Made by a program: the position numbers and the translations under genes
The notes under the pieces: model-generated
Databases searched by the model: none
Told to the model about the DNA's origin: nothing
Seen by the model: the letters and a program-made list of their open reading frames with translations, nothing else
Source of the DNA: Maridesulfovibrio sp.
Lineage (GTDB): Bacteria; Desulfobacterota; Desulfovibrionia; Desulfovibrionales; Desulfovibrionaceae
NCBI RefSeq assembly: GCF_963678865.1
Contig: NZ_OY787459.1
Coordinates: forward strand, 2,570,501-2,634,500
Direction of reading: 5' to 3'
DNA length: 64,000 nt
Shown: piece after piece, positions 61,237-62,739 of the stretch
Position numbering within the stretch: position 1 is the stretch's first letter
Layout of the letters: every line of letters begins with the position of its first letter

Positions 61237-61392
61237 ATGTTCAAACTTCTTCTCTTTATAGCAATCCTGATCCTGATATTTGGATACCGCAAACGTCAAA
61301 AAGCCAAAGGCGGCATCAATATCAATACTATCCTTCTGGCTGCGCTGGTGGTCCTTTTTTTAATATCGCTGCTGACCAGATTTCAAAATTGA
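61237..61392 (+). CDS. Predicted 51-residue membrane protein
   Basis: ATG at 61237 opens MFKLLLFIAILILIFGYRKRQ, then KAKGGININTILLAALVVLFLISLLTRFQN (quoted as its two halves), with TGA at 61390. It has two clear hydrophobic helices (residues 2-16 and 32-46) joined by a basic loop (YRKRQKAKGG), so it should be a hairpin in the inner membrane with the loop inside. No strong ribosome site is visible (TTAATAAATC). I cannot name a family. It is too short for usual gene callers, so it is probably unannotated. Confidence 0.6.
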   Translation: MFKLLLFIAILILIFGYRKRQKAKGGININTILLAALVVLFLISLLTRFQN

Positions 61393-61496
61393 TTATTTTT
61401 AAGAAACTTATCGGTTATATTTCTACAAAAAATATATATATTTGAATACATTAAAACTTATCTATTTATTTTTAATTTCTGATTTAAATTTTAGCA

Positions 61497-61526
61497 TTGA
61501 TATTCAATCCCATCTGATAGTACAAT
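61497..61526 (+). promoter_or_regulatory. Sigma70-type promoter of candidate sRNA
   Basis: TTGATA (61497-61502), 18 bases, TACAAT (61521-61526). Both boxes are one base from consensus. The start, about seven bases on, falls on the first base of the RNA's 5' stem. Confidence 0.7.
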
Positions 61527-61532
61527 ATTAAA

Positions 61533-61641
61533 ACACAGCAATTGCTACTCCACCAAACAATTACTGTGTAACAGGTTATCTCGTGACCTCTGTTGCTTAG
61601 AACGGCTGCTTTTTACCATGATGGCAGCCGTTCTATTTTTT
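61533..61641 (+). ncRNA. Candidate small RNA (about 109 nt)
   Basis: Hairpin 1: ACACAG C AATTG (61533-61544) pairs with CAATT A CTGTGT (61558-61569), eleven pairs and one mismatch. A weaker hairpin AACAGGT ... ACC then TGTT follows near 61570-61594. The end is an intrinsic terminator: AGAACGGCTGC (61599-61609) with GCAGCCGTTCT (61624-61634), eleven perfect pairs, then ATTTTTT. No ORF explains it. It is an independent transcript by these signs; target and role are unknown. Confidence 0.7.
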
Positions 61642-61667
61642 GTGCCTGTTGACCTCGCTGACGATTA

Positions 61668-61683
61668 TAGTTATCGATAACTA
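61668..61683. promoter_or_regulatory. Perfect palindrome upstream of MerR-like gene
   Basis: TAGTTATCGATAACTA is a 16-base perfect palindrome 105 bases ahead of the regulator start. A half-site-like TAATAACTAA follows at about 61695. It is a candidate operator for the HTH protein. Confidence 0.5.
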
Positions 61684-61788: not shown

Positions 61789-62739
61789 ATGACTGCCGAA
61801 TCATTCACCCATCGAGACCTATCATCCATAACCGGAGTATCGGTCACGACTATTAAAAGTTATCGCAAAAAATTTCCTGAATTCTTTTTTATTGTCGGAC
61901 ACGGAAAGCCACTGCGCTTCCGCAAAGGAGCTGACAAACTCAGTCTGCGCATTCGCGATCTTTTCAATAAAAATCTATCGGTAAGGCAGATACGAGACAA
62001 GCTTTTAACAGAATTTGAGTCAGTTAAAGATAATAGTCAGTTATCGGAAAGCAAAAATGATTCTCAGGTAAATAGCGAAGAATTTGAAAAGCTGGCTAAA
62101 ACAACCGCGCAGATGATGAATGGACTTGCAGCACTTGTCACAGCTCAAGCCAAAGCAGAACAGCGGTTGGGGCGTATGGAAAAATCATTAAAAGAACTGG
62201 TCGCAGCCCACTCTGAAAGCACGTACGGAACAACTGAACTTCTGCAGGAAATTAAAAATATCCTTGCCAGCTCCGGCGGGTTGCAACAACCGGAAAGGAT
62301 TACGGCCAAAAAAGTTGTAACCATCAAGAAAGACGATGGTGAAGCAGAGTCATATTCCTTCAATGCGGACAGTTCATCCATTTCACCTGAGTCCGACTTT
62401 CTTGATCTTCCTGTTGTTATCCAGTCTGACACCGGGGAATTTCTTGGTATGCCGGGTAAGCCAGGGCATCCCTTCACCCTGCAGGAACTTGTTGATCTGG
62501 TCAGCGTCCACAAAGAAAAAAATGCCTCCAAGATATGGCACAAGCTGGGCCGGGACTGGGTTTTGGCCGTTAAATCACCAGAAGGTCCTCTCTACGAACT
62601 TTTCTTCAGCAGGACTCACACACCTAAAGGAAATATTGTTTCTTTTTTCAAGAGGTTGGATATTAACACCGAATCCAAGAGCCATGCTGAGATTCTTTCC
62701 TTTTTCAGGGAAGTGCGGGACTTAATTGATTCCGATTAG
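61789..62739 (+). CDS. MerR-like HTH regulator with coiled coil and C-terminal domain
   Basis: The 316-residue protein starts with a MerR-type HTH (FTHRDLSSITGVSVTTIKSYRKKF, about 6-29) and a charged wing. A coiled coil follows (residues 100-165; KTTAQMMNGLAALVTAQAKAE). Then comes a C-terminal folded part (about 195-316) with GEFLGMPGKPGHPFTLQELVDLV and HKLGRDWVLAVKSPEGPLYELFF. The same HTH-coiled-coil plan appears at 23099. An upstream palindrome is a possible site. It is followed by glnA with a 230-base gap. Confidence 0.8.
   Translation: MTAESFTHRDLSSITGVSVTTIKSYRKKFPEFFFIVGHGKPLRFRKGADKLSLRIRDLFNKNLSVRQIRDKLLTEFESVKDNSQLSESKNDSQVNSEEFEKLAKTTAQMMNGLAALVTAQAKAEQRLGRMEKSLKELVAAHSESTYGTTELLQEIKNILASSGGLQQPERITAKKVVTIKKDDGEAESYSFNADSSSISPESDFLDLPVVIQSDTGEFLGMPGKPGHPFTLQELVDLVSVHKEKNASKIWHKLGRDWVLAVKSPEGPLYELFFSRTHTPKGNIVSFFKRLDINTESKSHAEILSFFREVRDLIDSD

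Follow-up and report, generated by a model that had tools for sequence, protein, structure and literature searches.

A predicted small RNA gene with a C-rich loop and a conserved promoter in Maridesulfovibrio

Small RNAs (sRNAs) with C-rich loops are known from bacteria of distant phyla, such as Staphylococcus aureus and Helicobacter pylori, where they have known targets and direct a structure-displayed motif against Shine-Dalgarno-like sites in hosts in which Hfq is absent or dispensable. Oleidesulfovibrio alaskensis is a sulfate reducer related to the bacterium treated here. The sRNA sX13 of Xanthomonas is 115 nt long, has stable stems with apical C-rich loops, and is reported to be Hfq-independent; around the start codons of the mRNAs that it represses, G-rich motifs are enriched, and the C-rich-loop sRNAs of S. 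aureus and H. pylori are mentioned in the same text (PMC3771888). For O. alaskensis G20, ncRNA candidates have been computed that, according to the abstract, belong to 18 existing Rfam families (PMC11124144).

Here, we describe a locus in a Maridesulfovibrio genome that, judging from sequence comparison, is very probably a small regulatory RNA gene kept by selection in close relatives. All coordinates refer to the window, i.e. the whole stretch of 64,000 nucleotides that was analysed, and all features lie on its plus strand.

The locus and its parts

The DNA between the open reading frame (ORF) of a small membrane protein and a MerR-like gene reads as a promoter, three hairpins, and a T-run. 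The -35 element TTGATA (61497-61502) and the -10 element TACAAT (61521-61526) are separated by a spacer of 18 nt and precede a predicted transcript of about 109 nt (61533-61641, both ends inferred). Hairpin 1 (61533-61569) consists of arms at 61533-61544 and 61558-61569, with 11 pairs and one C/A mismatch over 12 positions, and its loop carries the motif CUCCAC (CTCCAC in the DNA, 61548-61553), a C-rich putative first seed. Hairpin 2 (61573-61589; 87.3% of cells paired) is weaker and joins AGGUUA to UGACCU (AGGTTA at 61573-61578, TGACCT at 61584-61589); its second arm opens the near-invariant segment TGACCTCTGTT (61584-61594), the putative second seed. The intrinsic terminator (61598-61641; 92.7% of cells paired) has arms at 61599-61609 and 61624-61634 that form 11 perfect pairs, or 12 with the flanking T-A, followed by six T (61636-61641). 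An earlier note, made from the letters of the window, had described the same promoter with its 18-nt spacer, an 11-pair hairpin with one mismatch, a weaker hairpin, and an 11-pair terminator, all of which were recovered where it had placed them; its statement that the region holds no coding sequence agrees with the window's ORF list, in which no ORF of at least 60 aa overlaps 61497-61641.

Taken singly, these parts differ in how far they stand out from chance. A consensus scan of 60-64 kb found five promoter-like sites, compared to 7.5 (sd 3.1) in shuffled sequence, and the promoter by itself is no better than chance. The same scan did not list the terminator because its loop is longer than the scan's 8-nt maximum. 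The fold of the predicted sRNA reaches -37.9 kcal/mol vs -18.9 (sd 3.1) for shuffled sequences (z = -6.15; 0 of 200 shuffles equally low), and z ranges from -4.6 to -8.3 across seven homologues. As inverted repeats do, the minus strand folds equally well (z = -6.12), so that it is the conserved promoter and the T-run that tell the direction of the sRNA. The decisive evidence against chance is conservation, namely a promoter geometry kept in all eight known copies and compensatory changes in hairpin 1 and the terminator.

Conservation and distribution among relatives

A BLAST search of 58 genomes (the window's own and relatives) with a query of 154 bases returned six homologues beside the window itself (E from 6.7e-27 to 2.5e-5), all of the same genus and all upstream of a MerR-like gene. 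A covariance model built from these seven sequences found an eighth copy in G013 (E = 1e-7). Homologues are thus present in 8 of the 17 genus genomes, the window's included (G000, G001, G007, G009, G011, G013, G015, and G016). The same model gave no convincing copy elsewhere among 288 genomes of the family and 199 of the order (overlapping sets, searched with stricter filters that lose weak matches), and its matches outside the genus have E values of 6e-4 to 0.5 only. None of 25 such outside places (L069-L093) has both CTCCAC and TGRCCTCTGT; six places (L069, L070, and L188-L191) look by eye like terminators or the end of a tRNA. A second model (R2), with 150 candidates scored per genome, gave weak matches alone in the nine genus genomes that lack the gene, the best of them (E = 0.0066) beside a tRNA in G012. 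Plasmids and phages gave no match, and viral contigs none by pattern; a pattern search of named bacterial genomes, a collection that may omit records near the window, returned the single record Desulfovibrio sp. UBA2564.

On a FastTree tree of three proteins, the eight carriers fall within a group of ten (support 0.989), two internal nodes of which are poorly supported (0.42 and 0.52). The other two members, G003 and G010, lack the sRNA gene, as do six further genus genomes and the outlier G002; in G003, the gap between the small membrane ORF and merR measures 190 bases, compared to 396 in the window. One gain followed by two losses would be the simplest account of this distribution.

The promoter pattern TTGNNN-18-TANNNT occurs in all eight copies, where it ends 21-23 nt before the loop sequence UCCAC (G015 has a second match at 28), and spacers of 16, 17, or 19 gave no match in the eight genomes. 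Shuffled upstream sequences have an 18-spacer match 22-40 bases before the loop in 0.6-2.1% of cases per genome and in none of 1000 rounds did all eight have one together, with the reservations that the pattern was chosen after the sequences had been seen and that the distance in G013, 21, falls just short of the range scored for shuffled sequence. The homologues being related, the eight matches are not eight independent events; in the distant homologues, the spacer and the flanks of the promoter have diverged. By eye, a dyad, ATTGATATTCAAT (61496-61508), lies over the -35 element; the form ATTGAWATTCAAT is found there in four of the eight carriers (G000, G001, G007, and G009), is partial in G016, and is absent from G011, G013, and G015. 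This dyad is a possible operator, i.e. a site for some regulator.

Between species, most of the hairpin 1 stem has changed, while the loop CTCCAC (ATCCAC in G007) and the segment TGRCCTCTGTT are nearly fixed, and one or the other form of the C-rich loop motif stands between the arms in all eight copies. When arms were exchanged among the eight genomes, the mean energy of hairpin 1 was -11.0 with own arms vs -4.4 with foreign ones, and the native combination was the best of 40,320 permutations, beating all other 40,319; as an exception within the matrix, the 5' arm of G009 pairs more strongly with the 3' arm of G016 (-12.2) than with its own (-10.1). In the model-based alignment, five of the six modelled pairs of hairpin 1 are altered on both sides, as are 3 of the 12 terminator pairs and 8 of 25 pairs overall, a number reached by 2 of 500 shuffles. 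The covariation score is 0.267, compared to 0.123 in shuffled alignments (0 of 500 as high) and 0.02-0.09 in slid registers. That alignment was fitted to the model and favours the model's structure; the arm-swap test is independent of it. Hairpin 2 has no pair with a two-sided change, and its support is hence thermodynamic only. The T-run is strong in G000, G001, G007, G009, and G016 and weak in G011, G013, and G015. The earlier note had proposed conservation of the hairpins with compensatory changes in relatives as a check, which hairpin 1 and the terminator pass, and its reading of an independent sRNA gene gains support from these changes together with the conserved promoter.

That note also knew of no named family for this RNA and suggested a comparison with Rfam. 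The window has no match at the gathering threshold to any of the 4227 families of Rfam 15, and the best weak match over the sRNA is RalA (E = 2.7; 13.5 bits vs 170 needed). Among the papers listed by literature searches on sRNAs, noncoding RNAs, and Hfq of Desulfovibrio, D. salexigens, and Maridesulfovibrio, none concerns such an RNA, going by titles and the openings of abstracts; the one that deals with noncoding RNAs of a related sulfate reducer describes only families already in Rfam (PMC11124144).

Mode of action and rival explanations

In our best reading, which we hold with moderate confidence, the locus encodes an independent, Hfq-free, trans-acting sRNA that pairs with Shine-Dalgarno regions. 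A sigma-70-type promoter would have RNA polymerase start near 61533, and the intrinsic terminator would stop it near 61641; the product would be about 109 nt long and fold into three hairpins. Acting in trans, this RNA would use its CUCCAC loop and the UGACCUCUGUU segment to pair with certain mRNAs at their G-rich Shine-Dalgarno regions, thereby blocking translation; a plausible, weakly indicated target among them may be glnP, the permease gene of a glutamine-type ABC transporter. Rich in C, the conserved bases complement Shine-Dalgarno cores, and ACCUC resembles, and occurs in, the anti-Shine-Dalgarno sequence of 16S rRNA. By analogy with sX13, the predicted sRNA should pair with start regions. 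The action would take place without Hfq, as this protein was not detected in the genus: a search for PF17209 gave no match in 21 genomes, i.e. 13 genus members (G000-G012) and eight others of the same order, with a control that fired for 5 of the 14 known genomes used.

Protein-binding sites, too, combine a fixed loop with a stem that varies freely, and the mRNA targets discussed below are candidates only, so the RNA might instead bind a protein through the displayed loop, as a sponge or scaffold. GGA is the core of CsrA sites, and CsrB-type sponges carry it repeatedly in their loops; the predicted RNA is not CsrB-like, as the G000 transcript lacks GGA and the eight copies have none that is conserved, nor is it 6S RNA by Rfam. 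The C-rich loops of sX13, moreover, act against G-rich mRNA sites (PMC3771888). We consider a protein-binding role unlikely.

The neighbouring genes bear on two further explanations. According to one, the region acts in cis on the MerR-like gene, as its leader or attenuator, with the terminator controlling read-through. That gene indeed lies downstream on the same strand in seven of the eight carriers, and a five-codon frame (NTG ACC TCT GTT GCT TAG) precedes the terminator in G000, G007, G009, and G016 in the manner of a leader peptide. In the exception, G013, the order of genes is hisG, small membrane ORF, sRNA, and then a luxS-like gene (identified by eye) on the opposite strand; the sRNA gene is intact beside this convergent gene, and merR is about 39 kb off. 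(At the locus examined in G003, no hisG was found beside the small membrane ORF.) Elsewhere, the gap between sRNA and merR widens to about 455 nt in G011 and about 500 nt in G015. The stop codon of the five-codon frame is missing from this position in G001, G011, G013, and G015, and the third positions of ACC TCT GTT are invariant, which fits a constraint at the RNA rather than the protein level; the longest frames within the transcript are not the same from species to species. After the terminator, at 61649-61681, stands a separate merR box (TTGACC ... GACGATTA ... GTTATCGATAAC), which a regular expression locates ahead of merR in 16 of the 17 genus genomes and which has one change in the 17th, G012. 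It is conserved even in genomes without the sRNA, suggesting that merR is independent of the sRNA promoter, and is probably merR's own promoter and autoregulatory operator. A leader of merR is accordingly very improbable in our estimate.

The MerR-like regulator itself (61789-62739), which adjoins glnA, scores 17.7 bits against Pfam MerR_1, below the cut-off of 21.6; the genome holds a second, distant relative with 26% identity. The motif TTATCGATAA was tried as the mark of a regulon, with 19 palindromic sites vs 3 for the control; among ten sites inspected, the composite box occurs at merR only, and the idea was dropped. The earlier note had taken the nearness of the MerR-like gene and glnA as a hint of a regulatory role, which the arrangement in G013 does not bear out, and closeness to glnA is no clue to function.

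According to the other explanation, the RNA is the tail of an upstream mRNA, either a 3'UTR-derived sRNA or the terminator of the small membrane ORF. This ORF, in the window a conserved frame of 51 aa (61237-61392) with no Pfam or NCBIfam match above cut-off, precedes the sRNA in seven of the eight carriers. It was not found upstream in the G011 locus, where another coding-looking stretch takes its place, yet promoter and RNA are kept there, and a dedicated promoter is conserved in all eight; we give an origin as an mRNA tail very little credence. As neither neighbour is constant, the sRNA would be neither a leader nor a 3'UTR product, and both are unlikely from the sequence comparison. That the locus is a non-functional relic or a chance arrangement, as its absence from G003 and G010 inside the carrier group and its restriction to one clade might suggest, is hardly credible given the compensatory change and the conservation of promoter and loop across divergent genomes.

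Candidate targets and comparison with known systems

If the RNA is an independent sRNA that pairs with start regions, its two putative seeds should point to target mRNAs. For the hairpin 1 loop, the pattern GAGTGGAGT...ATG has 29 matches in the eight genomes (some of them overlapping, and one the antisense of the G013 sRNA itself) vs 11 for the reversed pattern; since GGAG forms part of the pattern, an excess ahead of start codons is to be expected. The search yielded no shared orthologous start; the sole similarity between frames of different genomes is 33% over 127 aa, and a site common to G009 and G013 opens frames of 8 aa. An MltB-like gene (identified by eye) with 11 pairs to the G000 loop was rejected, as the site is not conserved.

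For the second segment, the pattern AACAGAGGT...ATG shows no overall excess (30 matches vs 38 for the control), and two gene families recur, namely cdr, encoding a CoA-disulfide-reductase-like protein (six genomes; 347.5 bits with a cut-off of 458), and glnP (three genomes), whose product is a permease closest to GlnP (269.9 bits with a cut-off of 303). The cdr leader forms at least 10 pairs in six of seven readable carriers and 9 in G015, the row of G009 having been dropped because its match begins at residue 31. G010, which lacks the sRNA, also has 10, and in G000, 25 of 409 leaders reach as low a duplex energy. Clade-wide conservation of the Shine-Dalgarno region explains the cdr site at least as well.

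In all eight carriers, the genome's own sRNA and the glnP leader form an unbroken run of 10 to 17 pairs, G-U included; five of these carriers played no part in choosing glnP. Against the background of G000, 10 of 409 sampled leaders, among which the glnP and cdr regions themselves are counted, reach at least 10 pairs. Background leaders with runs as long as that of glnP number 0 of 89 in G013 (17 pairs), 0 of 80 in G011 (13), 1 of 88 in G001 (12), and 3 of 93 in G015 (12). Duplex energy does not set glnP apart in G000, where 38 of 409 leaders are as low, or in G015 (8 of 93); glnP does better in G011 (1 of 80), G001 (0 of 88), and G013 (0 of 89). The site is also kept in the two group members without the sRNA (12 pairs in G010, 11 in G003); with the G000 seed, the count is 7-9 pairs in the six sister-group genomes and 5 in G002, so that clade membership accounts for the site as well as the sRNA does. 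Exchanging seeds between species did not worsen the glnP pairing, 13,296 of 40,320 permutations being as good by run length and 21,648 by energy. We therefore treat glnP as a suggestive lead rather than a finding, with no co-variation behind it. Just before the glnP start, a G+C-rich hairpin with a T-run was noticed by eye (L147 and other glnP leaders), which in G016 follows a GlnH-like gene; it resembles a partial terminator within the operon of the glutamine transporter.

A bolder version of the trans-acting sRNA proposal can be put forward, which we regard as doubtful. A single gain within one genus would have given rise to an sRNA peculiar to the clade, which would work without Hfq and, through two seeds resembling the anti-Shine-Dalgarno sequence, would selectively stop translation of GlnP (and perhaps of the CoA-disulfide-reductase-like enzyme), thereby uncoupling the permease from its binding protein GlnH. 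With Hfq, the usual sRNA chaperone, undetected in the genus, the gene could show how sRNAs work without it there: its 5' end is predicted, two seed candidates stand out clearly, and close relatives differ naturally through its gain and loss.

Compared with described RNAs, the predicted sRNA differs from the ncRNAs computed for O. alaskensis G20 (PMC11124144) in matching no Rfam family. With the C-rich-loop sRNAs of S. aureus and H. pylori, its sequence was compared through Rfam only. It departs from sX13 in carrying CUCCAC, whereas two sX13 loops have CCCC (PMC3771888), in having one C-rich apical loop, its second C-rich part lying in and beside hairpin 2, and in its host, as Xanthomonas has Hfq and none was detected here; as there is no Rfam match of any kind, there is no sign of common descent between the two. 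The predicted sRNA is a new family, placed in no Rfam family, of a kind that is already well known: like sX13, to which it is similar in length, it combines stable stems with a C-rich apical loop.
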